Translations under genes and position numbers: made by a program
The notes under the pieces: generated by a model
Databases searched by the model: none
Told to the model about the DNA's origin: nothing
Seen by the model: the letters and a program-made list of their open reading frames with translations, nothing else
Shown here: piece by piece, positions 1 to 25,048 of the stretch
Position numbering within the stretch: position 1 is the first letter of the stretch
How the letters are laid out: every line of letters starts with the position of its first letter
Assembly (NCBI GenBank): GCA_035530055.1
Contig: DATKVN010000075.1
Location: 1-43,437, forward strand
DNA length: 43,437 nt
Direction of reading: 5' to 3'
Source: a bacterium
Lineage (GTDB): Bacteria > UBA6262 > WVXT01

Positions 1-1050
1 TCCCCAAAACTCTCCTTTTTTAGAAGATGGTACAATATTTGAAAATACAGTATCTACTAAAACTCGACTACCCCCAAACAGGGCAGTAAGAATCATAAGC
101 CCGATTGCTTGACCAACATTTTTAACAAAAGCAAAACCTGATATGGTAATAATTTGAAAAATTGCACTAAAATAAAGAATTTTTTTAACAGCAAATTTGT
201 CAGCCAGATACCCGTATACGATTGTCGCTGGCAAGCCGACTAAAAGAGGTATAGCGAACAATAACGGAATCTTAGAATCCGGAACGTTAAAAGCATCTTT
301 AAAAAAAAGGGGTATAAAGGGTAAAATTAAACCAATCCCAAACATAAAAAGGAACATTAATGCTATAAACTTTACCGGTTCTTTTTCCACAAGTAATTCT
401 TCCAGATGCACACGTAATTTCATCCTAAATCTAATTTTTTCTATATGGTCAGTTCTAGCCCTTTTTTTAAATTCTATACTCCAAGAGGGTTCCTTTATCT
501 TCAAGACAATGATCCCAGTAAGCAATAAAAGAGTAGCAACAAAATAGAATGCAAACGATTTATTCACTCCATACAGAATTCCGCCAACTGAGTTTATTAA
601 TAAAGCACCAATAATCCCGAAAAATGCTAAAAAACCGAAGGCCTTACCTCTCTGAGCAACTCCCACAATATCGGATATGAGAGGAAGCATCGGTCCTTGA
701 ATTAGACTTATCCCAATCCAAATCCCCACTAAATAAAATATAATTGAGATTAATTTAGTGGACTGACCACAGAATATAAAAGAAATGATAGCAATAATAA
801 CTCCTGTCAATATGAAAGGCGTTCTTTTGCCTAAATATGTTGAAACTTTGTCACTATAGAAAGCCGCCAGAGGAAATACCACCACTCCAATTAAAGGGCC
901 CAAACCCATTATTATACCGATGACGGCCTTGCTTTCAGTGAATAATGAAAGAAATAAGGGGATTAGGACTCCAATAAAGGTATGAGTTGCTCTAATCCCT
1001 ATAAATGATGAACCTATTAGGCCTAATCTAACCTTGGATAATTCTCTCAT
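1..1050 (-). CDS. MFS transporter, partial (C-terminus outside window)
   Basis: Major facilitator superfamily permease of the inner membrane, probably the exporter of this cluster's product. About 350 codons are open from ATG at 1050 to the left edge with no stop. The product is a run of hydrophobic helices. Between the first helices lies a loop containing YSDK and GKRTPF, resembling the MFS A-like signature (D/R-K-x-G-x-R-x-P). A charged central loop around residues 190-215 separates the N- and C-terminal bundles, and a second loop contains GYLADKF. The start overlaps the stop of the upstream GT2 fragment as ATGA, so translation is coupled to it. The substrate cannot be read from sequence. 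Export is inferred from position at the end of a biosynthetic operon. Confidence 0.85.
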   Translation of the reverse strand, partial: MRELSKVRLGLIGSSFIGIRATHTFIGVLIPLFLSLFTESKAVIGIIMGLGPLIGVVVFPLAAFYSDKVSTYLGKRTPFILTGVIIAIISFIFCGQSTKLISIIFYLVGIWIGISLIQGPMLPLISDIVGVAQRGKAFGFLAFFGIIGALLINSVGGILYGVNKSFAFYFVATLLLLTGIIVLKIKEPSWSIEFKKRARTDHIEKIRFRMKLRVHLEELLVEKEPVKFIALMFLFMFGIGLILPFIPLFFKDAFNVPDSKIPLLFAIPLLVGLPATIVYGYLADKFAVKKILYFSAIFQIITISGFAFVKNVGQAIGLMILTALFGGSRVLVDTVFSNIVPSSKKGEFWG

Positions 1051-1256
1051 TTTTTATTTCTTATTTCTGAATGGAGATATTTTATTCTATTGTTACCTCT
1101 TTTATATTCATTTACTAAATTTTTCATCTCATTATTTTCACTCTGATCAATAATTGTCAAATCAAAATCAGGATAGGTATTTGATAGAATGCTCTCTATC
1201 GCAGATTTTAAAAATATCAGACGGTTATATGTACATATGATTACTGAAACCTTCAT
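1047..1256 (-). pseudogene. Truncated GT2 glycosyltransferase, N-terminal fragment
   Basis: Encodes 69 residues matching only the start of family 2 glycosyltransferases: VSVIICTYNR, then SNTYPDF and IIDQSENN. It closely parallels the first ~65 residues of the full GT2 gene at 2533-3471 (SVIICTYNRP, SNTYPDY, IIDQSNTD). It lacks the DXD metal site and the acceptor half, so it cannot be a working transferase. The start is 2 nt after the Gfo/Idh stop and its TGA overlaps the MFS ATG. It is most likely what is left of a duplicated gene after deletion. Retention as a leader that couples MFS translation is possible. Confidence 0.75.
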
Positions 1257-1258
1257 GT

Positions 1259-2416
1259 TTAGTAGTCTAATAACGGTAGCTCCACTGCTCGTCCTTCTCG
1301 GCAGCTGAGATACACTGCCTCAGCAACTTCTTGCGCCTTGACAGCTTCAAAAAAACTGGGAACTATTTGTCTTTTCTCCTTTATTCCTATTAAAAAACGA
1401 ATTGTATTTTCGGCTATACCCCAAGCCCATATTCGTAGAAAATCTCTTCCAGGGAAATCCATCGATTTTGACATATCATTAATTTTTTCAGTCATATGCA
1501 TTAATCTCAAGGCTTTATATTTCTCACCATATTTCATCAGCAATTTCATCAGCAATGGTCCAGCGTTTTTCTTCTCTTCCTTATCACTTGACTTAGGAAA
1601 ATAAGTCAAATCTAAAAAAGGCCTTACAACGCATTGACCTTTCGAGCCAATAATCTCAAATTCGAAGTTATGACCAATGGACCGTCCAAAATAGCTTACA
1701 GTGAAACTACCTTGAGGAATTTTATCAAATACCGCAACCGTCTGGGTTAAAATATCACCACATTGATCGCCACTTGGTGTCTTGAATGCTACAATTTTCT
1801 TCAAATCGCCAAATAAAAATCTTGCGACATTTACCATATGACATCCAGATTCAAAAAGAACTCCGCCACCTTTTGATTTATCAAACCTCCAACTGATTCT
1901 CGGGTCAGACGGAACAATTCCCTTGAGAGCATAATCACTCCAATCAACTCGATAGCTTCCTCCTTCATCTAATATAGCACGCATGTAGTATAAATCACCC
2001 AAGGCTCCGCTTTCAATCATATTCTTAGCTTCTATAACTACTGGATCGAGAATGTACTGTAAGCCAGTCGTATGATATATCCCTTTCTCTTTGGCTAACT
2101 TATATAATTCCAAACTCTTATGTACATCAATAGCTAAAGGTTTTTCGCACAAGGTATGTATATTTCTCTCAATAGCATATCGTGCGATTTCTTCATGAAA
2201 TATAATAGGGGTACAAATAAAAATAACGTCAGGTTTTGCAGTTTCTATCAATTCTTGATAATCAGAAAATAGTTTTACTTTGCTCGCTGCAGAAATTTTA
2301 TTTCTTTTCCCTTCATCTTTTTCGACAATACCACACACTTCCACCCAATCCAACGAAGACAGAATAGAATCATAAATCTCACCTATCATTCCATACCCAA
2401 TTATTCCAACTCGCAT
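1259..2416 (-). CDS. Gfo/Idh/MocA family NAD(P)-dependent sugar oxidoreductase
   Basis: Soluble dehydrogenase of 385 residues, the usual family length. The N-terminal Rossmann fold begins with GIIGYGMIG (residues 4-12). The family EKP motif is CEKPLAID, with E91-P93. The C-terminal half carries the alpha/beta substrate domain with GGGVLFESGCHMVN, including the conserved His. Such enzymes oxidise or reduce a hydroxyl of a sugar, inositol or nucleotide sugar. Here it probably tailors a sugar used by the neighbouring glycosyltransferases. AAGGAGGTG lies just before the ATG. The exact substrate is unknown. Confidence 0.85.
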   Translation of the reverse strand: MRVGIIGYGMIGEIYDSILSSLDWVEVCGIVEKDEGKRNKISAASKVKLFSDYQELIETAKPDVIFICTPIIFHEEIARYAIERNIHTLCEKPLAIDVHKSLELYKLAKEKGIYHTTGLQYILDPVVIEAKNMIESGALGDLYYMRAILDEGGSYRVDWSDYALKGIVPSDPRISWRFDKSKGGGVLFESGCHMVNVARFLFGDLKKIVAFKTPSGDQCGDILTQTVAVFDKIPQGSFTVSYFGRSIGHNFEFEIIGSKGQCVVRPFLDLTYFPKSSDKEEKKNAGPLLMKLLMKYGEKYKALRLMHMTEKINDMSKSMDFPGRDFLRIWAWGIAENTIRFLIGIKEKRQIVPSFFEAVKAQEVAEAVYLSCREGRAVELPLLDY

Positions 2417-2532
2417 ATCACACCTCCTTTTTCATTTTTCTTAAAAAGCATCCGGTCACTACTCTAAAGCCTCCGTTGTCACGTCAGTCCTCATTTCAAA
2501 CCTTAATTCGCACCATTCTTCTCTAATTAACA

Positions 2533-3471
2533 TTATTTCTCTCTCAAATATACCATATTCCTTTTATCAACATTAAATTTCATACTCTTAATTATTCCTT
2601 TTAGAAACGAGATGAGATAGATTCTATATATCAAAACCAATAAATATAATGAATCTAGGAGTGAAAATTTTAGCGAAATAATATTATTAGTATATACGAC
2701 CAAATCAAAAGGAATTAAAATCAAAAGTAATAACACTGCATTAAAATCCATACATCGAATATGTTTACAAAATGTACCAACCGTTCCAATTATATAACGC
2801 TCGAATAGTAATTTTCCCTCTTCCCAAGTTCTAAAACCATGGTGCTCTACTTCTATTGTAGGAACATGGATTATCTTAAATCCCTTTTTTAGTGCCCTGT
2901 AAACAATATCATATTCTAATGCTGCTTTCAGTTCTCCTCCTGGCCCTAAGACTTCATCAAAATATCCCACCTTTTCAAAAAAGTTCTTCCTTACGACCAT
3001 ATTTGCTTGCATTATTCCTCCCGTACCCACTTTCTTAATGGAAAGAGGCCCTTTAAATTCAGCATATCGTATTTTATTAGCAGGAATGAATCCTCTTCTT
3101 ACGTCATGTTCAGCAGGCTTTACACTGCCAAAAACTATTATTGAGTCTGTGGTAATTCTGTCTAATGTAATAGCTATCTTTTCGAGCCAATCTTCTGAGA
3201 CGACACAGTCGTCATCAGTAAATGCAATAATATCTCCTTCGGCCTCTTTCACACCTAAATTTACAGCTCTAGATTTTCCTCGCACCGACCATAAATATTT
3301 TAAATGTGAGTTTTTAGTGATACATTTTTCAACTATCTTTTTTGTTTCATCTGTATTGCTCTGGTCGATAATTAAAAGCTCATAATCAGGATAGGTATTG
3401 GATAGGACACTTTTTACGACACGCCCAATGTCATTCGGCCTATTATATGTGCATATAATTACAGATATCAT
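2533..3471 (-). CDS. Family 2 glycosyltransferase
   Basis: GT-A fold glycosyltransferase of 312 residues. It opens with ISVIICTYNRP, the nucleotide-sugar binding strand. It has GKSRAVNLG (about 65-73) and a DXD-type metal site FTDDDCV (D86-D88). The segment LGPGGELKAALEYDIVYRAL provides the acceptor-side ED-like region. The C-terminus has two hydrophobic stretches (about 238-290) that probably sit in the membrane. It would transfer a sugar onto a lipid- or membrane-linked acceptor. A 116-bp gap separates it from the downstream dehydrogenase. A truncated copy of its N-terminus lies at 1047-1256. Confidence 0.85.
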   Translation of the reverse strand: MISVIICTYNRPNDIGRVVKSVLSNTYPDYELLIIDQSNTDETKKIVEKCITKNSHLKYLWSVRGKSRAVNLGVKEAEGDIIAFTDDDCVVSEDWLEKIAITLDRITTDSIIVFGSVKPAEHDVRRGFIPANKIRYAEFKGPLSIKKVGTGGIMQANMVVRKNFFEKVGYFDEVLGPGGELKAALEYDIVYRALKKGFKIIHVPTIEVEHHGFRTWEEGKLLFERYIIGTVGTFCKHIRCMDFNAVLLLLILIPFDLVVYTNNIISLKFSLLDSLYLLVLIYRIYLISFLKGIIKSMKFNVDKRNMVYLREK

Positions 3472-3540
3472 TATTAAGCCTTAATTATAAGTAATCGCTA
3501 TGCTCTAAGTAAGTAAAAGAACAATTGTAATAGATGAACC

Positions 3541-4833
3541 TTACATTTTTACTCGTGAGTTTTTAATAACTTCCTTGTAGACTCTTATTATTTTCTTTAC
3601 TTGCTCTTTAGGATTAAAATCCTTTCTCACAGTCTCATAACCATTTTTTATTAATCTATTCCTTAACTGATTATCACCCAGTAACCTCATTATTGTTTGG
3701 GCCAGTGCTTTATGGTCTCTGGGTGGAACTAATAGACCATTTTTACCATTCACTATATATTCTTTTATAACGCTTAGTTGGCTACTAATAACTGGAATGC
3801 CAGCTGCCATTGCTTCCAAGTTAACAAGCCCGTAATTTTCGTGAAGTGTAGGAAAAGCCATTACCTCTGCTAATTTATATATAGCAGGCATCTCCTCTTT
3901 TGGTATTTCTCCAGTAAATATTATGTTGTTTTCTAATCCTAACTTTTTTATTAAACTTTCTACTAATTCTCCATAAGATGATGGCATCCATTTCTGTTTT
4001 ATTCTCCCGGTAAGAATAACTTTGCATTCTGGATAACGTTTTAATACAAGAGGCAAAGCCCGTATTAAATATTCAACTCCCTTCTGAGGGACTATTCTGC
4101 CAACACATAAAATAATTTTGTTTTTTTGACTCAAATTAAATCTTTTTCTTAATTTATCTCCGCCATCAACTCTTTTTTTCTTAAGACAAACCCAATTATT
4201 GATATACACAACATTATTTTTTAAACCCTGATATTTAACTAAATCTTCTTTATCCTTTCTGCTGACGAAAATTATTTTATCAGCGTTACTTAAAAAAAGT
4301 CTTCTCATCCTCATATCAAATATTCTATATATAGGTTCTGATTTATAGAATCTCTCCTGTTCACACCTGATACATTTATTCTCATTGTAGCCTTCGCACA
4401 TTCCCTGATAACAATCATTATTTACTAATACTCCGTGGCTTGTATGCATTGTTAAAACTACAGGCTTATAAATCATATATTTTACAAAAATCGAAGTATA
4501 ACAGGAAAATGGGTCGTGAGCATGAATAATATCAATACCCACTTCTTTTAATTTTTTGGCTATAATAAAAGCCTCCTCAGAAGTAAAAGCCTTGAGTCCA
4601 CCAATTCGCCTCTGAGAAATAGATTTTTTATGAAGAATATTATCAATAGGACTTTTTACATCAAGAATTTTGAATTTGAATCTTCTTTTCTTAAGGTTTA
4701 GATAATTTTCATAAGTTGTAATAAGAAATACCTTGTGTCCTTCTTTAGCTAAAGAATCCGCCAATTCATAAACATGGGTTTCTATTCCACCTGTTTGGGG
4801 TAAAAAGAATTTTGATAACAAGGCTATTCTCAT
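3541..4833 (-). CDS. Family 4 glycosyltransferase
   Basis: GT-B fold retaining glycosyltransferase of 430 residues. The N-terminal acceptor domain shows PQTGGIETHVYELADSLAKEGH (the Gly-rich loop of GT4). The C-terminal domain has VGRIVPQKGVEYLI, the nucleotide-sugar binding start, and the EX7E motif in HENYGLVNLEAMAAG. A Cys-rich insertion around residues 135-160 (CYQGMC, CIRCEQE) may bind metal and is found in a subset of the family. The start lies 1 nt after the stop of the radical SAM gene, with its AGGAG inside that gene. The donor sugar is not predictable. Confidence 0.88.
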   Translation of the reverse strand: MRIALLSKFFLPQTGGIETHVYELADSLAKEGHKVFLITTYENYLNLKKRRFKFKILDVKSPIDNILHKKSISQRRIGGLKAFTSEEAFIIAKKLKEVGIDIIHAHDPFSCYTSIFVKYMIYKPVVLTMHTSHGVLVNNDCYQGMCEGYNENKCIRCEQERFYKSEPIYRIFDMRMRRLFLSNADKIIFVSRKDKEDLVKYQGLKNNVVYINNWVCLKKKRVDGGDKLRKRFNLSQKNKIILCVGRIVPQKGVEYLIRALPLVLKRYPECKVILTGRIKQKWMPSSYGELVESLIKKLGLENNIIFTGEIPKEEMPAIYKLAEVMAFPTLHENYGLVNLEAMAAGIPVISSQLSVIKEYIVNGKNGLLVPPRDHKALAQTIMRLLGDNQLRNRLIKNGYETVRKDFNPKEQVKKIIRVYKEVIKNSRVKM

Positions 4834-4834
4834 A

Positions 4835-5908
4835 TCATCCTCTCCTTGCAGATCTTCTTGATAAATAATCTACATCATATCCATAGAAGGAAGAACATCT
4901 GCTACATATTGAAAAAAGTCCTCTTCTTTTTAAGACATTCCTGAACCTTTCTGCTCTTTCCCCATACCATATATCAAGGATATTCTGGGTAAAAATGTTT
5001 CCAAGAATATAGTCAGGATAGTCAGTACAAAATACTACGTCGCCGTTAGGCAATATACCAATGCGCTCATTAATAGCAGCGCACTCTGTATATCCGAAAG
5101 TATAAGTGGGTTCCTCCAGGAACTTTTTAACATCTCTCATACAATCAAGAAGAATTAATCTTGAACTCCCTTTGGATTGCGCAATTTCATGGAAGGCTTT
5201 TTCTACCTCTTCAGGATTTATACCTATGTGATTCGTACTTATCCAACCATCGCAAGAAATTGCATCACATTCCAAAAAGGTTTTCATCTCCCACTTATAC
5301 CGTTTCCTCATCTGGGGTGTATGAAACCATGCAATCTGAAAGAAGAAAGAATGTGCATCAAAATTATCTTTTATGTAATTGAAGAAATCTATTATATATT
5401 TATAATTTTCATTAGTAATGGTATAAAGAAATTGTAATTGGGGAAGTTGCCTCATATGTTCTTTCTTTATTTTCTCTATCTTTCTTAACCCTTTCATAAC
5501 TTTCGAAAATACACCTTTGCCTCGGATACTATCATTAATTTTTTCCGGTCCATCTAAAGAAACTGCTACCCTGTCAACATTTGACACAATGTCCTCCGCG
5601 TATTCTTCCAAAAGAGTGCCATTTGTTATCATTGCTGATCTTAATTCTTTAGATTTGATATATTTCATTATTTCTCTTATATCCCGGTATAACAACGGTT
5701 CTCCACCCCAGAAAACGATTGTAGGTTTATACTTTGATATTTGGTCAAAAAATTTATACCATTTTTCTACATTTATTTCTTCTCGAAATAAATTAAATTT
5801 TTTATTGCGATAGAATCCTTTCGGTCCCCATTGAAAACACATTTTACATCTCAAATTACAGCGTTGAGTAAATTGCACACCAATAAATTCAGGAAATTTA
5901 ATGTTCAT
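4835..5908 (-). CDS. Radical SAM/SPASM domain enzyme
   Basis: Radical SAM enzyme of 357 residues. The catalytic 4Fe-4S motif is CNLRCKMC (C17, C21, C24). FWGGEPLLY carries the GGEP SAM-binding motif and SLDGP follows. C-terminal cysteines in YTECAAIN, VVFCTDYPD, LGNIF and CSRCSSFYG form a SPASM/Twitch-type auxiliary cluster region. SPASM enzymes usually modify peptides (RiPP maturation) but also act on sugars and alcohols. Here it sits among glycosyltransferases and 11 nt after a GT1-type gene. No precursor peptide is obvious, so the substrate is open. Confidence 0.87.
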   Translation of the reverse strand: MNIKFPEFIGVQFTQRCNLRCKMCFQWGPKGFYRNKKFNLFREEINVEKWYKFFDQISKYKPTIVFWGGEPLLYRDIREIMKYIKSKELRSAMITNGTLLEEYAEDIVSNVDRVAVSLDGPEKINDSIRGKGVFSKVMKGLRKIEKIKKEHMRQLPQLQFLYTITNENYKYIIDFFNYIKDNFDAHSFFFQIAWFHTPQMRKRYKWEMKTFLECDAISCDGWISTNHIGINPEEVEKAFHEIAQSKGSSRLILLDCMRDVKKFLEEPTYTFGYTECAAINERIGILPNGDVVFCTDYPDYILGNIFTQNILDIWYGERAERFRNVLKRRGLFSICSRCSSFYGYDVDYLSRRSARRG

Positions 5909-5919
5909 CTGTTCCTTAT

Positions 5920-7209
5920 TTAAAGATGTCCCTTTAATAATTTTACTGCTAACCCTGCACCCTGATAAGCAGCAATATCCTGTTGTACTTTTCTGGCCCC
6001 TTCTTTATACCTTGGATTATTTTTGATTTCATCGACCATTGCACAAATATTACTTGGTTCGATTTGATTTGGATACATCCACATACCAGCACCTAATTCT
6101 TTTATCCTTTCCGCATTACTTAATTGTTCTATACTAAAAGGCAACGCTATACTGGCATTTCCATAAGCTAAATTTTCCATCAGTGTTCCTAATCCACCAT
6201 GACATAAGAGAATCACATTTTTTAATCTAAGGATAAGATTACTTGGGACATATGGCGTAATTTGGATATTCTCTGGTAAATTCTTTAATCTCAAATCGGG
6301 ATTTGCTATTACCACTTGTACATCAGTGTTGCCAAGTACCTGCAAAATTATCTCATATACTTTTCCTACCCTATCTCGTACAACGCCCGCCATTCCACCA
6401 AAAGTTACATAAATAACTGGTCTTTCATCGTCGATTTCTAAGTCAAAATGTGATAAATTGTAATCACTATTTGAAAATATAGGACCCACATATTGAGATG
6501 CTGGTTGGGGACCGATATAGTAAGTATTAATAGGTAACTCGGGTACTACACTTATAGAAGGAGTGGATGGAATGAAACTTAGCTCAGGGGATAATAGCAA
6601 GTCATAAACACTATTTACTAAAGGTAATTTAAATTTTTCTAAAAATGGATGAAAATTCCTTGCATTTTTTTCAGCTATAGCCAAAAAGGTATCTGGTCCC
6701 ATACTGGCTAGCATAGGCTTGACTCCATGTGGAAAAATAATCTGTAACCACGATTCAAGAGCTTTTTTATTGGAATCTCTTACCTTGTAAAGCGGTTCAG
6801 CAGCGGCTTTAATTCCAGAAGGTATCTGTATTGCCAAGACAATAGATATCCACTTTATTTTGGTTGCCCGAGCAGAAATACCAGTAGTGTATCGACCATC
6901 ACTAATAATCAAGTTAGGTTTAAAATCATCAATAATCTTGAGTTCTTCAGCAATACACTGTTCAATATAACCTGGTTTACTGAAGCTTTGAATCTTCTGA
7001 AAGAAGTCAGGTTTATCTTCTTCTTCTGTTAGTGGGTAGACTTTATCGAAACCAGCACTCTTAATAAAATCACATCGCTCTTTCTTTACCGCAAAGGTAA
7101 TATTGAAATTTTCACTTTTCAACTCATTGGCAATTGACAAACAACGTATAATATGTCCAAGACCTGTAGATATGGGCTCGAAGAGAATCCTGGTTTTTTT
7201 GCCTTTCAT
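5920..7209 (-). CDS. GT1/MGT-like UDP-glycosyltransferase
   Basis: GT-B fold glycosyltransferase of 429 residues, related to macrolide, flavonoid and MurG-like transferases. The N-terminus has the STGLGHIIRCLSIANEL acceptor-domain loop. The C-terminal domain has IYVTFGGMAG and the donor-binding signature CHGGLGTLMENLAYGN followed by ALPFSIEQLSNAER, the classic HGG..E...P..QQ..NA pattern of natural-product glycosyltransferases. It most likely glycosylates a small hydrophobic aglycone made by the cluster. It starts after AGGTGTGATAG and is followed closely by the SPASM radical SAM gene. Confidence 0.87.
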   Translation of the reverse strand: MKGKKTRILFEPISTGLGHIIRCLSIANELKSENFNITFAVKKERCDFIKSAGFDKVYPLTEEEDKPDFFQKIQSFSKPGYIEQCIAEELKIIDDFKPNLIISDGRYTTGISARATKIKWISIVLAIQIPSGIKAAAEPLYKVRDSNKKALESWLQIIFPHGVKPMLASMGPDTFLAIAEKNARNFHPFLEKFKLPLVNSVYDLLLSPELSFIPSTPSISVVPELPINTYYIGPQPASQYVGPIFSNSDYNLSHFDLEIDDERPVIYVTFGGMAGVVRDRVGKVYEIILQVLGNTDVQVVIANPDLRLKNLPENIQITPYVPSNLILRLKNVILLCHGGLGTLMENLAYGNASIALPFSIEQLSNAERIKELGAGMWMYPNQIEPSNICAMVDEIKNNPRYKEGARKVQQDIAAYQGAGLAVKLLKGHL

Positions 7210-7223
7210 CTATCACACCTACT

Positions 7224-8018
7224 TTAAAGTTTAGTTGCATCTAAAATATTATATTTTTGGCGGAAAAGGTCGACAATTACAAACTTAGGAGCAATTATTG
7301 GTTCTCTTTTAATCGGTAAAATATCTTGTAATAATATTATTAAAGATTCCGCAGCAAGTAACGAACCAGCCAAGTTGCAACTTAAAGAAAGAGAAGGAAT
7401 TTCATGCGTCTTCATTTTATCTTTAATTAAATCTATACACCAGGGAACAGAATATTTTTTGATATGAAAAGGCATATTCTTATTCCAAGATTTCGTAAAA
7501 TCTTCATGCTTCATACCGAATGGTGAAAACCCCATAAGTGTGGCTCCAAATCCCACAATTGAACTTGTGAGCATAAAAATTCCTTTTTTTCTTGCCTCTC
7601 GATATAATTCTTTTCTCGACTCGTAATTTACAAAGTAATCTAAAGAGTCTATAACAATATCAACGTTATCCAAAAAAGACGAAAGAGAGTCAAAAGGAAC
7701 TCCTTTACAGAATTTTTTAATATTAATTGTTGGGTTTATGTCTTTTAAAACTTTTTCATAAACCTCTGCTTTATTTTTTCCTAACGTTGATTTGAAAGCC
7801 GCCCACTGACGATTAACATCAGGCTCATCAAATCTACCTGGATCGGCTAACCTAAATCTACCCACTCCCAATCTGGCAAGCGTGACAGCTGATGCGCCAC
7901 CAACGCCGCCACATCCTGCTATTGCTATTGTAGAATTTCTTAACTTTTTTACACCCTCTTCTGTCAAAAAAGGGATGCTTCTGGCAAGAAAACTATAATA
8001 CTTATCCCCTTTGACCAT
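7224..8018 (-). CDS. ThiF/MoeB/HesA-family E1-like adenylyltransferase
   Basis: E1-like enzyme of 264 residues that would activate a carboxylate, typically a protein or peptide C-terminus, as an acyl-adenylate. It has the ATP-binding loop GCGGVGG (35-41), the strand RLADPGRFDEPDVNRQ (about 56-71, with conserved D, N, R, Q), Lys in GKNKAEV, and the conserved Asp in VIDSLDYFVN. The paired CXXC zinc cysteines of MoeB/ThiF are not present and I see only isolated cysteines (C36, C105 and the C in VPWCID). No ubiquitin-like or ThiS-like partner ending in Gly-Gly is found in the window. AAAAAGGAGG precedes the start. Target unknown. Confidence 0.85.
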   Translation of the reverse strand: MVKGDKYYSFLARSIPFLTEEGVKKLRNSTIAIAGCGGVGGASAVTLARLGVGRFRLADPGRFDEPDVNRQWAAFKSTLGKNKAEVYEKVLKDINPTINIKKFCKGVPFDSLSSFLDNVDIVIDSLDYFVNYESRKELYREARKKGIFMLTSSIVGFGATLMGFSPFGMKHEDFTKSWNKNMPFHIKKYSVPWCIDLIKDKMKTHEIPSLSLSCNLAGSLLAAESLIILLQDILPIKREPIIAPKFVIVDLFRQKYNILDATKL

Positions 8019-8287
8019 TTTATTTATGCCTCCTTTTTAAAAGGAAATATTTCTTATTACATAAACTACTTTAATAAATTAATAAATCAACTATTAATTT
8101 TACGCCATTATATTAATTTAAGAAACCATTAAGTCAGTCAGGAAATCTCTCGTCAATAGCTTTGTATATAAAGCTTTTACCTCACAGGGATGAATTCAAT
8201 TTCCTGATATATCTCCCAATAAAAACTTTATCAATATAACTCTCAAGCTGAACTACTGTGTCCCATCATCTCCTTTTTATATGTCCT
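8019..8287 (-). other. AT-rich intergenic region with a possible decayed short ORF
   Basis: This 269-bp gap splits the alpha/beta hydrolase and the ThiF-like gene. Minus strand, 15 nt after the hydrolase stop, an AAAAAGGAG site abuts two ATG codons that open only an 8-codon frame. One base off, a 27-codon frame without a start reads on (containing QLESYIDKVFIGRYIRKL). This looks like a short gene broken by a single-base change. A weak promoter-like TTGACG about 120 bp before ThiF may restart transcription. Nothing else is seen. Confidence 0.3.
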
Positions 8288-9085
8288 TTAACCATCTGAT
8301 AAGAAACGTTGAATTATAGAATTAAAAACTTCTGGTTTCTCAATTTGAGGATAATGTCCTGCTTCTTGTATCACTTCTAAAACAGAATTAGGTATTAATT
8401 TATTAAAAAGACTTCCCATGTCCAACGGTAAACTTCTGTCTTTCTTTCCCCATATAATTAAGGTAGGAATTCCGATCTCTGAAAGTCGATCTCTTAAATC
8501 AGTAAGATTCCCCATTAACTTACTAAATGCATATTTGGATGATTTAAAAGCATCATTTAAAACATCATCCGTTACATATTGAGAATTGAAAAACATTGCA
8601 TTGCGCATCATTGACTTAATTGCACTTTTTCTCATAATCCAGCAACTCAACAAATAACCTATAAATGAAACCTTAAATAAAAAGAGTAACTTAGGTAATT
8701 TTGAGGGTAATATTCCCCCACTATTAACTAAGATAAGTTTCTTAACTTTTTTTGGATATTCAACAGCCATACTTAAAGCAATTTGTCCCCCAATAGAATG
8801 GCCCACAAAAATTGACTTTTCTATTTCAAAGTATCTCATAAATTCATTTAGGAATTGAGCATAATAAATGGTGCTGTAATTTACTTTAGGTTTATCAGAT
8901 TCGCCCCAGCCAGGGAGATCTAAAGCATAAACTTTATAAGAATTCGCTAATTCATGGATTGTGTTAATCCAACAAAGAGACGAAGTAAACATTCCATGGA
9001 TCAGAATTATAGGTTCACCATACCCTTTAGTTCTGACAAAAATCTTATTATTCTGTATAAATGTGTATTTACACTCCATATTCAT
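8288..9085 (-). CDS. Alpha/beta-fold hydrolase
   Basis: Alpha/beta hydrolase of 265 residues with a complete triad: Ser97 in GHSIGG (nucleophile elbow), Asp216 in WGKKDRSLP and His244 in EAGHYPQIEKP. The oxyanion-hole strand is LIHGM (about 29-32). A cap domain of helices lies near residues 125-190. This family hydrolyses esters, thioesters, amides or C-C bonds. In a biosynthetic operon it could release or trim an intermediate. It lies between the B12 radical SAM gene and the ThiF-like gene. The substrate cannot be told. Confidence 0.88.
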   Translation of the reverse strand: MNMECKYTFIQNNKIFVRTKGYGEPIILIHGMFTSSLCWINTIHELANSYKVYALDLPGWGESDKPKVNYSTIYYAQFLNEFMRYFEIEKSIFVGHSIGGQIALSMAVEYPKKVKKLILVNSGGILPSKLPKLLFLFKVSFIGYLLSCWIMRKSAIKSMMRNAMFFNSQYVTDDVLNDAFKSSKYAFSKLMGNLTDLRDRLSEIGIPTLIIWGKKDRSLPLDMGSLFNKLIPNSVLEVIQEAGHYPQIEKPEVFNSIIQRFLSDG

Positions 9086-9131
9086 GCTAGATATCCTACT
9101 TAATCAGAATCTATTAGAAAAATTCAAAAAA

Positions 9132-10796
9132 TTATTCTCTATTCCCTAAATTTATCCTCTCGATCAAATCTTCTAATAAACGATAATCTCCATTCAAAAG
9201 AGTCTTATTTATTCTATGGTCAAGCGTATCAACTGGAATATTAACTTTCGCTGCAATTAAAGGATATAGAGGATCAACACTTTTTATCCCTTTTTCTCTT
9301 AGGGTCTTTTGCATGCTCTCCCACTCTTTTACTAGGCTTTTAAAGTCCTGTCCATTTATCTTATACGGTAATGGAGGCAATTTATCGGGACAGCCTAAAT
9401 ATAACGAACAGAGATTAAACATAATATATTCTAGAAATCTTTCTTTACTCATCAGAATCTCGATATTATAACTGGAAGCATCTTCTGCCCACGCTATTCC
9501 TGGATAGATTACTGGAAACAACACATTTGTCGCATCCAACGCTAATTCAGAGATGAACTTGATAGTATCATTTTTAGTTTCGTCATTATCAAAAGGGGCA
9601 GGATAAATAAAACTCCCTGAAACAAAAAGTCCAGCTTTTTTAGCCAAGATAACACTCTTTTTTATCTGTTCAAGCCTTATCCCCTTTTTCATCTTATCAA
9701 GTATACCTTGATTGCCTGATTCGATACCAAAAAACACTGAAATCCCACCTGCATTTTTCATCTTTTGGAAAGAATTCCCCCCCGAAGATCGGGCATCAGT
9801 TAATATACAAAATTTAACTTTAAGGTTTTCTTCCACGATCTTTTCGGAAACTTTTTCGATTAATCTCTTGGGAGTATTGGAACCTCCAAAATAGAAAGTA
9901 TCAACATTATATCGAGAAAGGTAGTATTTTATTTCTTTTACTATTCGCTCAGGACTTTTGGATCTTTGCTTAACTCCACTTTTAATAGAATGACCACAAA
10001 ATGCACATGAGTATGGACAGCCCCTAGAGTCTTCAACTATAATTATTTTAATCTTTTGATTATTATTTAAACTTAGATAAACATCTTCATCATATACCGG
10101 TAAAGGTAGGCTGTCTAAGTTTTCTATTCTTTTTATAGGAGTAGTCACTATTTCACCATTTTTCTCAAAAATAACATTTGGTATATCCTCAAGGTTCCTT
10201 TGCCCTACAACATATTCAGCCAATTGAACGATTGTCTCTTCGCCTTCTCCACGCACTAAAACATCAAAATCATTAAAGACTTTTAAAATTTTATCTTTTG
10301 CTATATCCACTGCTGGACCACCACCAAAAATTTTTATTAAGGGAATTTGTCTTTTAATTTTTTTAACCATTTCACACGACTTTCTAAAGGATTCTCCATT
10401 CCACAATTTAAATCCTATAAAATCAATGTCTTCTTCGTTAATTTTAGAAATAAGCTTTTTTGTAACCTCATTTGTGTATCGCCACTTTATTATTCTTAGG
10501 ATATTCTTAATCAATAAAATTTGAAGATTCACAACAAAGTTTGTTGTCCATCTTTTCCTTTTATCCTTTTCAAGAAATAATTTCTTATTCCATTTTGTAA
10601 GGAACGGGGGATTTAATCTTCGTCTCATCTCTAAGGTCCCAAAATCTAAAATTTTTGTTTTATGGCCATTTACAATAAGCGCTGAAGCCAGACTAGCAAG
10701 ACCATTATCTGGAAAAAAACAATCTATACCAAAAATATCAGTGACGAAACTTATGAGAAGACTTTTTGTCTTTTGTTTATTTTCTCTTAATTCCAT
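9132..10796 (-). CDS. B12-binding radical SAM enzyme
   Basis: Class B-like radical SAM enzyme of 554 residues. The N-terminal half resembles a cobalamin-binding Rossmann domain (NGLASLASALIVNGHKTKILD, DFIGFKLW, IKIFGGGPAV, LVRGEGEET) but lacks the DXHXXG His ligand. The radical SAM core has CPYSCAFC (C260, C264, C267), then FYFGGSN and SVFFGIESGN. Relatives methylate unactivated carbon or phosphorus or rearrange carbon skeletons, and many act in natural-product pathways. The C-terminal ~120 residues are extra and unassigned. The ribosome binding site is weak. It follows a second radical SAM gene by 48 nt. Confidence 0.87.
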   Translation of the reverse strand: MELRENKQKTKSLLISFVTDIFGIDCFFPDNGLASLASALIVNGHKTKILDFGTLEMRRRLNPPFLTKWNKKLFLEKDKRKRWTTNFVVNLQILLIKNILRIIKWRYTNEVTKKLISKINEEDIDFIGFKLWNGESFRKSCEMVKKIKRQIPLIKIFGGGPAVDIAKDKILKVFNDFDVLVRGEGEETIVQLAEYVVGQRNLEDIPNVIFEKNGEIVTTPIKRIENLDSLPLPVYDEDVYLSLNNNQKIKIIIVEDSRGCPYSCAFCGHSIKSGVKQRSKSPERIVKEIKYYLSRYNVDTFYFGGSNTPKRLIEKVSEKIVEENLKVKFCILTDARSSGGNSFQKMKNAGGISVFFGIESGNQGILDKMKKGIRLEQIKKSVILAKKAGLFVSGSFIYPAPFDNDETKNDTIKFISELALDATNVLFPVIYPGIAWAEDASSYNIEILMSKERFLEYIMFNLCSLYLGCPDKLPPLPYKINGQDFKSLVKEWESMQKTLREKGIKSVDPLYPLIAAKVNIPVDTLDHRINKTLLNGDYRLLEDLIERINLGNRE

Positions 10797-10844
10797 ATAG
10801 ACTCACAATTATTTTTTTGTTAAAATCAGGCTATTCTCATTTTA

Positions 10845-12191
10845 TTATTTTAAATTGTGCCGTTTATAATTGGCGAGGACCTGTTGATACTGTTTTTCGA
10901 CAACTTTGTCTTTGTCTGATAAATTGTTTTTAATTTTAACAAATCTATTTCCATAAATGCCAACTAGTAATTTAGTACAACATTCCAAAAACTCATCAAT
11001 AGATAATTTTGTAGGACGAACAACCATATGAAATCCATCAAAGAATTGCCAGTCATTAGTAATAAGATTATGTTTTTCCTTTTCATATAAATCGGTCCCA
11101 GGCCCTGGGGTTAAAAAAGGCACTACAACAAAAGTCAACTTCATCTTTTTTATATAATTTAGTAGGGCATCAAAGTCTTCTTTGGAAAAGCTCGATTCAA
11201 TTAAAAAATACCCAATTATTTCAACACCATTTTGCTTTAAAATATGAATTGCATTTTCATTGTTGGCAATTGAGTTATTTTTATTATGCCTAATTAAATC
11301 CTCATCACGGAAAGATTCCAAACCAACAAGAATAGCGTCTAAACCAATTTCTCTCCACTTTTCAATAATATCAGGCCTTCTCGCAATGGAATCCGACCGG
11401 CCATAAATGAAAAATCTTTTTTTAATACCTGCCTTTCTAATAGCCTTATATAATTCTTCAAAAAAGTTTAAGTCTAACATTGTATTGTCATCTTCGACAT
11501 TTACAAGTTCTTCATCAATAAGCATCAGCTCATTGACAATCGATTCAACACCCCGCTTGGTAAAGGTTCCATTTGAAAATTTCCAGCATGTACAAAAATC
11601 ACATTTATATGTGCAACCCCTTGTGGTAAAAATTGCACCAACAGGTCTTCGTCCATGTCGATTATAAAGTACCCTATGGGCTCTTGTTAAATTGCGATTA
11701 GGTAGTGGAAAATCGTCTAAATTTTTTATTCGTTCTCTACTCGGTGTGAAACATAATTGCCTTCCCTCTCTATATGCAATTCCCTTGACTTTAGAGAAAT
11801 CTCTTTTTAATCTATATGCTTCTACTAATTCAGGAAAAGTTATTTCTCCTTCACCAATGACAATCACATCAACAAATTCTCTTTTAAATTCCTCAGGAGC
11901 TAGTGAAGCAAAAATCCCTCCGACAACAGTCAAGATATTTGAGGAGTATTTTTTTACATCTCCTAACACACTACAGACAACTTCATATTCTGGTGCAACA
12001 CCTGTAATTCCAACTATATCTGGTTTGAAATCATCTAATTTTCTCATCAAATCAGAATCAATCCTCATGTCCAATATTTCCATCTCATGAGTATTTACAT
12101 TTGCTGCTATTGTCTCCAATCCAAGTGGCTCAATCAAACCAGGTGTCATAGCAGGATTCCACAATGGCGGTTGAATTAATAATATTTTCAT
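10845..12191 (-). CDS. B12-binding radical SAM enzyme
   Basis: Second radical SAM enzyme of the cluster, 448 residues. The N-terminal B12-type domain runs from KILLIQPPLWNPAMTPG through EPLGLETIAA, VGITGVAPEYE and VVGGIFASLAPEEF to VIGEGE. The DXHXXG His is absent here too. The core cluster motif is CTYKCDFC (C193, C197, C200), followed by EDDNTMLD and LVGLESF. The overall form is that of the P-methylase/BchE-like group. A good AGAGGAC site precedes the ATG. Two such enzymes in tandem suggest successive radical steps on one scaffold. Confidence 0.88.
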   Translation of the reverse strand: MKILLIQPPLWNPAMTPGLIEPLGLETIAANVNTHEMEILDMRIDSDLMRKLDDFKPDIVGITGVAPEYEVVCSVLGDVKKYSSNILTVVGGIFASLAPEEFKREFVDVIVIGEGEITFPELVEAYRLKRDFSKVKGIAYREGRQLCFTPSRERIKNLDDFPLPNRNLTRAHRVLYNRHGRRPVGAIFTTRGCTYKCDFCTCWKFSNGTFTKRGVESIVNELMLIDEELVNVEDDNTMLDLNFFEELYKAIRKAGIKKRFFIYGRSDSIARRPDIIEKWREIGLDAILVGLESFRDEDLIRHNKNNSIANNENAIHILKQNGVEIIGYFLIESSFSKEDFDALLNYIKKMKLTFVVVPFLTPGPGTDLYEKEKHNLITNDWQFFDGFHMVVRPTKLSIDEFLECCTKLLVGIYGNRFVKIKNNLSDKDKVVEKQYQQVLANYKRHNLK

Positions 12192-12252: not shown

Positions 12253-15200
12253 TTAACGCTTCAACTTATTTTGCAATTTTTGAACTTTAGCCATTTGGTA
12301 TTTATTGTCTATCTCTGTAAATTTATCTACTGCTTTTTGAAAAGCTCGTTTTGCTAGATTGTATTGTGTTAACGTCAAATATAATTGCCCCAGAGATACT
12401 TGAGTCAGCCCTTCCTGAATCGGATTATCAGTCTCTTGAGTGATAGCTAAGCTCTTATTTAAAAATTCCCCGGCCTTTTCAAACTGTCTTCTTTCCTGAG
12501 CAATTTGTCCCAACAAACGATAAATATGAATTTGATAATAAATATTCTCTAATTCAGGGTCGCTAACAATCTGGTGCGCTTCCTCAACTAAAGAACTGGC
12601 TTCATTTAATCTTCCAAGTCTCATATAAATATCACCTAAGGAATAAAGAGATAAAATTAATCGCTCTATACGATTCTTTTTACCAATATCAATCGCGAGT
12701 TTTAATTCATTTATTGCTTCTTTCACTTTATTTCTTTCAAACAATAATAAACCAAGTAACGCTCTACCATAAGATTGCTCACTATTACATGATATTTCAA
12801 TAGCTGCTTTTATAAGTTTATTTATCCATCTTTCAGCTGATTCGAATTCTCCTCTTTGCAGCGTAGCAAGGCTTAGATGTGCATATAAATGGATACTATT
12901 GGTTAACGGTTTTCCCATTTTCTTATTCAAATCATTAAGGATTTGAGCCTTAATTTGAAATTCTGAATAGCGCCCGCATAAAGCATATCGCTCTACTTCA
13001 ACATGAACAGCCCAAAAAAACCCATCAAAAAGATTGAATTTCTGAGAGATCTCAAGAATTTTCTCCAAATATGTTCTATCAAACTTTTTCCCTTGATAAA
13101 CAAAAGCTATTTCCCTCATAAAACAACATAGCCCATACAGAAACCACGATTCTCTATCTACTAATTGACTCTTGGATTTCTCAAAACATTCAATTGCTTC
13201 TTCCATAAGTTTCCTTGCTAATCTGTGCTTCCCAATAAATCCTAAGGCTTGAATTTGAGTTGCTAATATCCCTCCTTTCATAAAAGATTCTGGATCTGGC
13301 AGATACTCCAAATTTCTATTAGCTACTTCAATACTTTTTTCATTTTCTCCTATGAATGAATAAGCAAAGGCTAAATTAGCTTGGCTCATAATCAATTTAC
13401 GGATAATGGTTGGATAATCACCTTTGAGTCTCGGTTTGGGATATCGGGGTTGATTTAATTTAGTTTTAATTTTGTTAGATAAAGCCCTTGGCAAATAACT
13501 TATTAACTTAAAGAATCCTCGCATCAGTTTTATTACCCTTTGGACGTCTCCATAAGCGTGGAAGATTTTTATAAGTTTTTTACTCGCCTCAACACAGACT
13601 TTAGGATCGGTATCTACTGTTATCTGACTAAGTTTCTCCAAGGTATCTATCATAACTGTCTCTTTTTCGGGATAATCTATGACTTCGAGTAAGTCAACCC
13701 CCTGTTTTAATAACTTAGAAGCTTCTATTAAAGCATTATTTTGCACCGCTCTGTTTCCTGCCATGATAAGATATCGAACCGCTTTTTGTTGACTCAAACC
13801 GTTGCTGAAATGATAAGCTAATTCGCTTGCAACTATCTCTTTGTTTTCACCAAAACGTTCTTCTATAATAGTTCCTGTTTTTTCGTGTAATTCCTTTCTT
13901 TTTTCTTCATCAAGTTGATGATAGAGGGCTTCTCGGACACGGTCATGGGTGAAAATATATTGTTTCTCCTCAGTTTTCATAAATTGATGTTCAATCAGCT
14001 CATCCAAGATTTCGAAGAGTTTTTCATCTTCTAATGCACTTAATACCTTTAGAAAAGATAACTCTAAACCTCTATCCACCACAGAGGCGATTCTGGCGAG
14101 ACCTAAGGCTTCAGGACTAAGAAATTTCAAACGGCGGAGTATGGTGGCTTCAATTGAAGTAGGTAATTCTAATGTGCTTATATCTATAGGTAATATCCAA
14201 CAGCCTCGCTCTAATCGTAGTTGTTCTTCTTCAATTAACGCCCTCATCGTTTCACTAACGAAAAAGGCATTTCCAGCAGTAGCAGTATATACATGTTCGG
14301 TAAAATCTTCGGTCAATTCTATCCGACCCAACATCCCTTTAATTAATGATTGAATATCGTCTTGGTTCAAAGTTGATAGTTTCATTAGTTGCGTAATCTC
14401 TTCTTCTACCGTTTGAAAAATGATGCTGGTAGATCCCACCTCATCATCACGGAATGCACCCAAAATCATAATTGGATTAGATCTTGTCTCTCGAATGCAA
14501 GCATTCAGTAATTCCAAAGTGGCAAAATCAGACCAGTGTAAGTCTTCTATGCAAATAACTATTGAGGTAACTTTTGATATATCTTTTAACCATCCGGTAA
14601 CTTGCTCAAATAAGCGCACCTTTTCTCCAACCTCATCTAATTTTGGAGCAGGCTGGTAACCCTTCCTCCTTAATTCTGGTATAACCTTAACAAGCACTGA
14701 ACCATATTTATCTAATATCTCTTTTTTAGTTAACGGCAGTAAAGGTCTAAAACCATCTGCTAAGGGTTGATAAGTAGTCATTCCTTGTTCGAAACATTGC
14801 CCTTCCATAAAGGGGACTTCCGCTAGTTGGACTTTTAATTTAAACTCTTGAATCAAGCGAGTTTTTCCTACCCCGGCTGGTGCAGCAATAAAAATACTCT
14901 CACCCTTCCCTTGTGTCGTTAGAGTAAAGGCCTCTTTCAGTTCTTGCATTTCCCTTTCCCGCCCTATAAGTTTACTGCAGTTAAGATAGCTTTTCCTTTG
15001 TTCAAAGGTCTCTATAGCTATTTTCTCGCCAGTAACTTGAACTAAATCATTAATTAATTCAGCTGTTGTCTGATAGCGTTCATTTTGATCTTTGGCGAGG
15101 AGTTTTAGTATTATTTCTTCCAATTCCTCAGGGGTGTCTTCTCTAATTTGGCGAAGAGGAATAGGAGATGTTTGGATATGTTGTCTGATAATATCTAATG

Positions 15201-15846
15201 TCTTGTTACCCACAAATGGGGGTTGCCCAGTTACCAATTCATAAGCCATTATACCTAACGAATATAAATCGGAGCGAGCATCAATAATACCACCTTCAGC
15301 TACTTCAGGTGGTAAATAAATAACAGTTCCAGTTATTTCGCCACCGCTAGGTAGCCCCATCTGGTCCATTAGACCAAAGTCCATCAGTTTGACATTTCCT
15401 TCTGGAGTAACGCGAATATTTGCTGGTTTTATATCTCGATGAACCAGAAGCCTGGAATGAATGAAATTTAATACCTGGCAGGTCTGAATGAGAATACGAT
15501 AGATTTCCGAAAAACTTAACTTCCTTTCTCTTAAAATATCCCGTAACTCCTGACCCGGGACAAACTCCATAGTTAGATACTCGTCGCCATTTTCTAACAC
15601 ACCGTAATCAAATACATTAACTGTATTTGGATGTTTTAATTTAACCATAGTCCGAAACTCTTGTCTAAAGTGCAGAGACACTTCCTTTCGTGAGATAAAG
15701 GTGGCAGAATCTTCCTTTTTATAGACCTGTTTGAGGGCCATTTCTCGTTGTTCTACTGTGTCATAGACCCGCCAAACTCTCCCCATACCCCCTTCACCGA
15801 TTTTATCAATTATCCTGTATCGATTCGCTAATAGGGGTTCTGTCAT
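12253..15846 (-). CDS. Ser/Thr protein kinase - AAA-type ATPase - TPR signalling protein
   Basis: Large cytoplasmic sensor-regulator of 1197 residues. Domain 1 (about 10-270) is an active-looking Hanks kinase: GEGGMG loop (17-22), Lys39 in ALKQ, HRDIKPAN (Asp137), DFGL (156-159) and PPE (179-181). Domain 2 (about 290-560) is a predicted STAND/AAA ATPase that starts with LIGRERE, has Walker A APAGVGKT (322-329) and Walker B VICIEDLHW (430-438). The rest (about 700-1190) is helical TPR repeats that would bind partners. There is no C-terminal DNA-binding domain, unlike LuxR-type relatives. The ATGA overlap with the small RHH-like gene upstream suggests the two small proteins are its output or targets. 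Confidence 0.92.
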   Translation of the reverse strand: MTEPLLANRYRIIDKIGEGGMGRVWRVYDTVEQREMALKQVYKKEDSATFISRKEVSLHFRQEFRTMVKLKHPNTVNVFDYGVLENGDEYLTMEFVPGQELRDILRERKLSFSEIYRILIQTCQVLNFIHSRLLVHRDIKPANIRVTPEGNVKLMDFGLMDQMGLPSGGEITGTVIYLPPEVAEGGIIDARSDLYSLGIMAYELVTGQPPFVGNKTLDIIRQHIQTSPIPLRQIREDTPEELEEIILKLLAKDQNERYQTTAELINDLVQVTGEKIAIETFEQRKSYLNCSKLIGREREMQELKEAFTLTTQGKGESIFIAAPAGVGKTRLIQEFKLKVQLAEVPFMEGQCFEQGMTTYQPLADGFRPLLPLTKKEILDKYGSVLVKVIPELRRKGYQPAPKLDEVGEKVRLFEQVTGWLKDISKVTSIVICIEDLHWSDFATLELLNACIRETRSNPIMILGAFRDDEVGSTSIIFQTVEEEITQLMKLSTLNQDDIQSLIKGMLGRIELTEDFTEHVYTATAGNAFFVSETMRALIEEEQLRLERGCWILPIDISTLELPTSIEATILRRLKFLSPEALGLARIASVVDRGLELSFLKVLSALEDEKLFEILDELIEHQFMKTEEKQYIFTHDRVREALYHQLDEEKRKELHEKTGTIIEERFGENKEIVASELAYHFSNGLSQQKAVRYLIMAGNRAVQNNALIEASKLLKQGVDLLEVIDYPEKETVMIDTLEKLSQITVDTDPKVCVEASKKLIKIFHAYGDVQRVIKLMRGFFKLISYLPRALSNKIKTKLNQPRYPKPRLKGDYPTIIRKLIMSQANLAFAYSFIGENEKSIEVANRNLEYLPDPESFMKGGILATQIQALGFIGKHRLARKLMEEAIECFEKSKSQLVDRESWFLYGLCCFMREIAFVYQGKKFDRTYLEKILEISQKFNLFDGFFWAVHVEVERYALCGRYSEFQIKAQILNDLNKKMGKPLTNSIHLYAHLSLATLQRGEFESAERWINKLIKAAIEISCNSEQSYGRALLGLLLFERNKVKEAINELKLAIDIGKKNRIERLILSLYSLGDIYMRLGRLNEASSLVEEAHQIVSDPELENIYYQIHIYRLLGQIAQERRQFEKAGEFLNKSLAITQETDNPIQEGLTQVSLGQLYLTLTQYNLAKRAFQKAVDKFTEIDNKYQMAKVQKLQNKLKR

Positions 15847-16100
15847 TTTTTACTCTTGTTTTTAGAAGTATTTCTAAAGGCTTGCAAAAATCTTTCCTCT
15901 GTTTCTTTTTCAGACTTTACTCTAGAAACGTCGATCTTCATAGGCATAACTATTTTAATAAAGGTATTAAGTATGGAACTCCGAGATGGTTTCTTTCCTC
16001 CACAGAATCTCATTTCTCGAGCTATTCTATCGATGAACTTAATTTGCCTCTTGTTCATTCCGATATTGGTCACAAGTAAATTTCTATTCTGATTTTTCAT
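15843..16100 (-). CDS. Small ribbon-helix-helix-like protein 2
   Basis: Basic protein of 85 residues, not matched to a named family. A short strand (NLLVTNIGM), a helix (KRQIKFIDRIAREM), a Gly-Gly turn (FCGGKKPS) and a second helix (RSSILNTFIKIVM) fit a ribbon-helix-helix DNA-binding fold. The tail ends in KSEKETEERFLQAFRN. It aligns along its whole length with the neighbouring 99-residue protein. It starts within the last 17 nt of that gene, and its own stop overlaps the kinase start by 4 nt. I infer a DNA-binding or adaptor role under the kinase; that role is unproven. Confidence 0.75.
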   Translation of the reverse strand: MKNQNRNLLVTNIGMNKRQIKFIDRIAREMRFCGGKKPSRSSILNTFIKIVMPMKIDVSRVKSEKETEERFLQAFRNTSKNKSKK

Positions 16101-16383
16101 TTGCTAACTTACCTTTGTTTCTGTTCATTCTTCGGAACTCTCTAAGCGATTGAAGAATTCTCTTTTCTAAATCTGCCTGAGTTCTAATATTTTTGCAGTC
16201 TACCTTTAGCCTCACAAAGGCATTAATTAAGCTTCGAATAATATATGACTTAGGAAGTTTATAACCCCCACTAAGCTTCATTGAAATACCCAGATTATGA
16301 AGCCAATCATCCGTCTTTTTATCCAGAGAAAGGGGGATACGGAATAGGTTTTTTTCTACATCAGATCTAAATCTTTTCTTCAT
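16084..16383 (-). CDS. Small ribbon-helix-helix-like protein 1
   Basis: Basic protein of 99 residues and paralogue of the next gene. It follows the same plan: strand NLFRIPLSL, helix DKKTDDWLHNLGISM, turn KLSGGYKLPKS, helix YIIRSLINAFVRL, then a helical tail with DLEKRILQSLREFRR. The layout suits a MetJ/Arc-type DNA-binding dimer with a long turn, and the two paralogues may form a heterodimer. It is the first gene after the structured leader and terminator, with AAGGTG upstream of the ATG. A DNA-binding role is inferred from the predicted fold, not from a known homologue. Confidence 0.75.
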   Translation of the reverse strand: MKKRFRSDVEKNLFRIPLSLDKKTDDWLHNLGISMKLSGGYKLPKSYIIRSLINAFVRLKVDCKNIRTQADLEKRILQSLREFRRMNRNKGKLANEKSE

Positions 16384-16404: not shown

Positions 16405-16441
16405 AAAAAACCGAACTGCTCTCTTGCAAAAAGCAGTTCGG
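16405..16441 (-). terminator. Intrinsic terminator in the leader of the RHH-kinase operon
   Basis: Minus strand: a perfect 10-bp stem CCGAACTGCT/AGCAGTTCGG with an 11-nt loop, followed directly by TTTTTT. It ends about 21 nt before the first start codon, so full transcription of the operon needs readthrough. An upstream AGCAG (near 16465-16471) could pair with CUGCU of the left arm as an antiterminator. Confidence 0.9.
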
Positions 16442-25038: not shown

Positions 25039-25048
25039 GGGTTTTATA

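Follow-up and report, generated by a model that had tools for sequence, protein, structure and literature searches.

A low-GC3 operon with two B12 radical SAM enzymes, a ThiF-family adenylyltransferase and glycosyltransferases as a candidate pathway to a glycosylated metabolite

We analyzed a stretch of 43,437 nucleotides (the window), which is the entire contig DATKVN010000075.1 (C75) of a draft genome of 1.68 Mb that is 96% complete. Its first 16 kb contain an operon of 11 genes (g1 to g11) (Table 1), which probably makes a glycosylated specialized metabolite. The affinities of two of its enzymes, g7 and g9, lead us to propose tentatively that this product could be an exported, glycosylated acyl-chain metabolite, possibly an N-acyl amino acid. 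By sequence, the operon falls within none of the families tested and differs from them by a novel mix of genes for known kinds of chemistry. If the proposal is true, the operon would provide a testable route to anaerobic natural products in which B12 radical SAM enzymes tailor acyl or N-acyl cores before sugars are attached, made by bacteria that rule-based cluster finders would probably overlook.

Structure and composition of the operon

A previous sequence-only reading had described ten collinear genes at positions 1 to 12,191. All ten ORFs were confirmed: they are closely packed on the minus strand, carry the domains assigned to them (Pfam), and have intact catalytic motifs (CxxxCxxC in g5, g9, and g10, GHSIG in g8, HGG in g6, and EKP in g2). 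The extent had to be revised, as the unit also includes at its head g11, which codes for a Ser/Thr kinase-AAA-TPR protein, is separated from g10 by 61 bp, and has a GC3 of 0.30. At the other end, g1 is cut off and the cluster cannot be traced leftward because the contig stops at position 1; the extension in that direction suggested earlier did not succeed, with an end k-mer search for overlaps yielding no second occurrence of the first 23 bases of the contig in the assembly.

Table 1. Features of the operon and its upstream boundary in the window
Feature	Position	Strand	Evidence
g1, MFS transporter, truncated by the contig end, 350 aa visible	1..1050	-	Pfam MFS_1 4.6e-27
Remnant of a second GT2 gene, 69 aa	1047..1256	-	Pfam Glycos_transf_2 1.6e-10, profile positions 1-64 of 168
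g2, Gfo/Idh/MocA (GFO_IDH_MocA) sugar dehydrogenase, EKP at 91	1259..2416	-	Pfam 3.2e-22
g3, GT2 glycosyltransferase	2533..3471	-	Pfam 1.3e-30
g4, GT4 glycosyltransferase	3541..4833	-	Pfam Glycos_transf_1 7.2e-45
g5, radical SAM/SPASM enzyme, CNLRCKMC	4835..5908	-	Pfam Radical_SAM 4.4e-22, SPASM 8.2e-14
g6, GT1 (EryCIII/UGT-type) glycosyltransferase	5920..7209	-	Pfam EryCIII-like_C 5.9e-17
g7, ThiF-family adenylyltransferase	7224..8018	-	NCBIfam PRK08223 203 bits; BLASTP; tree
g8, alpha/beta hydrolase, GHSIG	8288..9085	-	Pfam 3.7e-37
g9, B12-binding + Radical_SAM enzyme of a widespread uncharacterized family	9132..10796	-	Pfam
g10, B12-binding + Radical_SAM enzyme, HpnR/BchE-like below both cut-offs	10845..12191	-	Pfam, NCBIfam
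g11, Ser/Thr kinase-AAA-TPR regulator	12253..15846	-	Pfam Pkinase 2.8e-48, AAA_16, TPR
Two small ORFs (85 and 99 aa) upstream of g11	15843..16383	-	No Pfam match
Intrinsic-terminator-like hairpin, 16 pairs + T tail, likely 5' boundary	16409..16443	-	Consensus match

Each of the 11 genes has a GC3 of 0.25 to 0.30 (mean, 0.27), compared with about 0.40 in 51 other genes taken from the window and three further contigs (P = 5e-7). The intergenic gaps are mostly 1 to 69 bp; the one between g8 and g7 amounts to 269 bp in all (205 bp from the g8 stop to the g7 start, plus the leader) and holds no minus-strand ORF of at least 20 amino acids. The sole Rfam match was a tRNA-Glu, so there is no known riboswitch in the operon. 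This arrangement supports g1 to g11 being one co-directional unit of distinct composition. The GC3 values also support a foreign or recent origin without by themselves proving a single pathway, and the operon was probably acquired horizontally. From layout and composition in this one genome, we infer that all ten genes serve a single product.

It is improbable that there is no single pathway and that two or three unrelated acquired fragments (g6 to g11 and g1 to g5) merely lie side by side, as the genes share one strand and equal GC3, most junctions have gaps of 1 to 61 bp, and, on this strand, the stretch from g11 to g1 has no terminator-like site except a weak one inside g5 (such sites are consensus matches and were not enriched over shuffles). 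What speaks for separate fragments is that the gaps grow toward g1 (69 bp, 116 bp between g3 and g2, and 208 bp between g2 and g1), that the last of them holds the GT2 remnant, a sign of past rearrangement, and that the g9/g10 pair occurs elsewhere without g1 to g8.

Glycosylation genes

As the sequence-only reading had stated, the unit has no PKS, NRPS, or terpene core enzyme. Genes for an acyltransferase, a ketosynthase, a carrier protein, or a nitroreductase are likewise missing from the visible 16 kb. Glycosyltransferase g6 shares the EryCIII-like C-terminal domain and the HGG motif with the GT1 enzymes of macrolides and enediynes (CalG1 and OleI; TIGR01426), CalG1 being its nearest solved relative, but it reached only 91 bits against the TIGR01426 (MGT) cut-off of 260, and the match of the N-terminal (acceptor) domain was weak. 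Among 193 genomes we found no orthologue of g6, the single weak match being confined to its C-terminal half, and neither GT1 nor ThiF orthologues were found in the genus. No NCBIfam model matched g5 at its cut-off.

The main rival to a specialized metabolite would make the operon a locus for a surface glycan or glycolipid, such as a capsule, an O-antigen-like structure, or an S-layer glycan. The radical SAM enzymes would then act on sugars or on a lipid carrier, and the MFS transporter and the kinase would be incidental. Three glycosyltransferases, the GT2 remnant, a Gfo/Idh dehydrogenase, and a SPASM radical SAM enzyme are commonly found in glycan loci, and a typical one in the same genus (L064, genome G003) has a different B12 radical SAM gene beside GT4, GT2, acetyltransferase, Gfo/Idh, and DegT genes. 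However, that locus lacks both ThiF and the g9/g10 pair, and the operon, cut as it is at position 1, lacks a flippase, polymerase, ABC exporter, initiating transferase, or sugar-nucleotide pathway gene. The natural-product type of g6 and the presence of an MFS exporter in place of a glycan exporter also argue against a glycan locus, so that we consider it somewhat unlikely.

The ThiF-family enzyme and its FeeM-linked relatives

The ATP/adenylation site of g7 is intact in an alignment with Escherichia coli ThiF, MoeB, and TcdA, with residues G35, G37, G38, G40, D59, R70, Q71, K83, D124, and D127 invariant. Its best NCBIfam model is PRK08223 (203 bits, below the cut-off of 266), followed by PRK14851 and PRK14852, with the ThiF/MoeB models well lower. 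Two PRK08223 members from another phylum (L146 and L147) adjoin FeeM and nitroreductase genes; near-full-length BLASTP alignments of g7 to them scored 115 and 104 bits, compared to 70 for E. coli ThiF, 54 for TcdA, and 52 for MoeB. In the tree, g7 grouped with these two proteins (93/84), and a four-row group adding L005 had values of 96/93, although identity to the FeeM-linked ThiFs is only 31 to 36%. The PRK14852 model itself spans a FeeM part (positions 32 to 201, matched by the FeeM of locus L066) and a ThiF part (approximately 311 to 589).

FeeM, ThiF, and nitroreductase together are the gene set of acyl-oxazolone makers. The ThiF homologue TyzB cyclizes N-acyl tyrosine with ATP (PMC10404671), TrzS, another ThiF homologue, carries out the ATP-dependent cyclization of N-acyl tryptophan (PMC12856293), and the stieleriacine loci contain the same trio of FeeM-type synthase, ThiF, and nitroreductase (PMC12479983). 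Like these pathways (TyzACB, TrzAS, OxzAB, and the stieleriacine type), the operon has a ThiF-family enzyme, predicted to use ATP and with its adenylation residues conserved, which may belong to the FeeM-linked clade. It differs from them in lacking an adjacent gene for FeeM or another N-acyltransferase (there is one FeeM-like gene on another contig, C105) and an adjacent or fused nitroreductase-family desaturase, and in adding B12 radical SAM enzymes, glycosyltransferases, and a SPASM enzyme, in a host that is probably anaerobic.

Searches for g7 itself in 145 relatives and 35 genomes of the phylum of G129 gave mostly partial matches of 23 to 40% identity and no orthologue. A search of viral contigs with ThiF yielded nothing, and plasmids searched with g9 and ThiF gave partial, low-identity matches only. 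A PRK14852 search in the relatives and in the phylum of G050 matched the window only, or nothing, and was uninformative, as was a single-sequence AlphaFold model of g7, unusable at a pLDDT of 43.5.

The affinity of g7 also bears on the modified peptide that the sequence-only reading had allowed as a product, in which the SPASM and B12 radical SAM enzymes and ThiF would act on a precursor peptide before its glycosylation. Such enzyme classes are known from RiPP pathways, and g9 has sub-cut-off matches to ApyD (141 bits) and rSAM_ocin_1 (117 bits). Nevertheless, no precursor-like small ORF was found in the gaps of the visible operon (one past the contig end is possible), Pfam detected no RRE/PqqD domain in any operon protein (divergent RREs could escape), and g7 clusters with FeeM-linked ThiFs. 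A modified peptide is therefore not supported as the product, a RiPP cluster being very improbable.

The B12 radical SAM enzymes and their neighborhoods

We scanned 84,980 species genomes with two peptide patterns derived from the g9 alignment and obtained 42 loci, of which 39 are nonredundant with a strong g9 match, at 29 to 41% identity and mostly near full length. Most come from metagenome-assembled genomes, and g9 forms a long branch whose position in the tree is not fixed. Near g9, none of the 42 loci has a homologue of ThiF, GT1, the alpha/beta hydrolase, or the SPASM enzyme, nor did the search for a ThiF plus B12 radical SAM neighborhood yield a second case, so the novelty claimed for the gene combination holds at this scale, and it appears to be a singleton within the searched genomes, from which close relatives of the source genome may be missing. 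The enzyme pair itself is less restricted, as g10 and g9 are found together in five other lineages, and within the genus one genome alone (G002) has orthologues of both (37 and 48% identity) in a different gene context. The independent scattering of homologues that had been named as evidence against a cluster was thus found in part: g9 and g10 keep together in other lineages and g1 to g8 do not travel with them.

The common theme among the neighbors of the g9 family is acyl chains, given the ketosynthases, FeeM proteins, and KAS III/ACP/AMP ligase genes found there. A FabF-like ketosynthase lies within about 8 kb of g9 in 20 of the 39 loci, far beyond chance given that a genome has only one to three such genes. 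Two-component genes occur within 6 kb in 31 of the 39, a weaker signal because they are common. Every g9-linked ketosynthase for which this region is available has Gln or Asn in place of the second catalytic His of FabF (C-H-Q/N), whereas the sole ketosynthase match in the source genome is a canonical FabF that keeps it, which marks the g9-linked enzymes as dedicated ones and not housekeeping FabF. The 7TM-kinase domain was recognized in nine of ten histidine kinases tested from these loci, in most of them accompanied by GAF and PAS domains. Regarding XrtA/PEP-CTERM systems, two of the kinases align over their full length with PrsK, and matches of the module kinases to the PrsK model TIGR02916 reach up to 198 bits, below its cut-off of 300.

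A FeeM-family protein directly follows g9 in four loci (L066, L067, L070, and L072), and in a fifth (L060, genome G050) FeeM lies two genes upstream of a g9-like gene, with an AMP ligase in between. Elsewhere FeeM is rare (3 of 116 genomes). The FeeM proteins of L067 and L070 match the PEP-CTERM/XrtA-associated acyltransferase model TIGR03694 below its cut-off of 112. The g9 locus of L072 (Aenigmatarchaeota) is nearly identical to that of L066 (Phycisphaerae), likely by mis-binning of one of them.

A recurrent set of C-H-Q/N ketosynthase, g9-type B12 radical SAM enzyme, and 7TM-GAF-PAS histidine kinase, often with a second kinase and a response regulator, was seen in many uncultured phyla, among them Omnitrophota, Elusimicrobia, Armatimonadota, and UBP13 (L056 to L059, L065, L069, L073, L075 to L078, L082 to L085, L087 to L089, L091, L092, L099, L102, and L104). 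A narrow search of open-access papers for such a system returned nothing relevant. The operon shares with this set a full-length g9, a g10 that is an orthologue of the partner enzyme, and an adjacent sensor kinase gene, but it lacks the C-H-Q/N ketosynthase and the 7TM histidine kinase, having the Ser/Thr kinase-AAA-TPR protein instead, and eight of its genes are absent from all the other loci. We speculate, with considerable doubt, that in these modules the C-H-Q/N ketosynthase or FeeM makes an acyl core for g9 to modify, alone or together with g10, and the 7TM histidine kinase senses the product. The g9 and g10 enzymes would then be a new class of acyl-signal-tailoring cobalamin radical SAM enzymes, quorum-sensing-like and outside the known autoinducer families, and the operon a glycosylated, ThiF-activated offshoot with a Ser/Thr kinase sensor. 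Such a set across uncultured lineages may outweigh the operon in importance.

One relative is cultured, so that the enzyme pair can be studied there. In Anaerobacterium chartisolvens DSM 27016 (L094:4774-18971), g10 and g9 precede KAS III, ACP-like, and AMP-ligase-like genes, together with ETF-like and acyl-CoA-dehydrogenase-like genes (acyl-CoA oxidation). With annotations made by eye except for KAS III, it is a candidate uncharacterized gene cluster.

The B12 radical SAM enzymes also raise a membrane glycolipid pathway, in which g9 and g10 would alkylate or cyclize lipid chains in the manner of HpnR and the glycosyltransferases would build the head group. Indeed, g10 shares the order of B12-binding and then radical SAM domain with the hopanoid C-3 methylase HpnR (TIGR04367) and the BchE cyclase (TIGR02026), which are its top NCBIfam matches (199 and 162 bits), g9 also matches HpnJ and the ladder-lipid B12 radical SAM model, and related g9 modules include ICMT/PEMT-like methyltransferases besides ketosynthases. 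All these matches are far under the cut-offs (650 for HpnR and 481 for BchE), however, and an MFS exporter and a GT1 are atypical for membrane lipids. Signaling or secondary metabolites would better fit the links to FeeM and ThiF and the sensor kinases that accompany g9 in most loci, and we regard this pathway as unlikely.

A FeeM-like gene elsewhere in the genome

The source genome codes for one FeeM-like protein (C105:1166-1915; 34.8 bits, cut-off 27), and none was found in its five nearest relatives (G001 to G005). The gene lies in the first 2 kb of its contig, and its neighbors have a GC3 of 0.26 to 0.30, the value of the operon. Behind the gene lies a TPR kinase whose TPR region resembles that of g11 (31% over 317 amino acids), a weak argument for a connection. 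Physical linkage of the gene to the operon is attractive but unproven; a co-directional joining of the two fits the composition, but it was rejected, there being no sequence overlap between the contigs. The row on C105 (L132:3-6499) consists of an HD-GYP-PilZ gene, the FeeM-like synthase, two PilZ-like genes, a TPR-GAF-histidine kinase, and an HD-GYP response regulator, the first four with operon-like low GC3.

Proposed pathway

Two of the operon enzymes, g9 and g7, have on independent evidence relatives that work with FeeM-type synthases, which points to acyl chemistry. For an acyl-chain product we infer the following steps and order from the enzyme families. The acyl chain would come from primary metabolism, an amino acid perhaps being joined to it by the FeeM-like synthase of C105. 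Enzymes g10 and g9 may modify the chain at unactivated carbons, by C-methylation or ring formation, and g7 could adenylate the carboxylate and then cyclize or activate it, as TyzB does in making oxazolones. The hydrolase g8 may trim or edit an ester, after which sugars would be added by g6 and then by g4 and g3, with g2 and g5 modifying the added sugars. The product would be exported by g1 under regulation by the g11 kinase.

This acyl-chain proposal is favored by the ketosynthase and FeeM neighbors of the g9 family, the affinity of g7 to FeeM-linked ThiFs, and the FeeM-like gene of the source genome. It is weakened by the absence of any acyl-core or nitroreductase gene in the 16 kb and by the canonical FabF being the only ketosynthase match in the genome, as well as by g7 scoring below the PRK08223 cut-off, the long branch of g9, and the separate contig that holds the FeeM-like gene. 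The organism may be an anaerobe, as its many radical SAM enzymes suggest. TyzC-type desaturation requires O2, which weakens the analogy with the acyl-oxazolones in a probable anaerobe.

Other genes of the window

Beyond the operon, positions 17976 to 20974 (minus strand) hold a GH65 phosphorylase and a beta-phosphoglucomutase-like gene, likely a disaccharide phosphorolysis set. A plus-strand region at 23806 to 32821 contains glycosyltransferase-like genes, a phosphatase-like ORF, two GH130-type ORFs, and a myo-inositol-1-phosphate synthase, along with a short nucleotidyltransferase-like ORF (26544 to 26942), and a similar gene set is present on contig C74 (L133). An arylsulfotransferase (ASST)-like protein is encoded at 33627 to 34775 (plus strand), and two tandem UvrD/AddA-type helicase-nuclease-like genes occupy positions 37374 to 43436 (minus strand).
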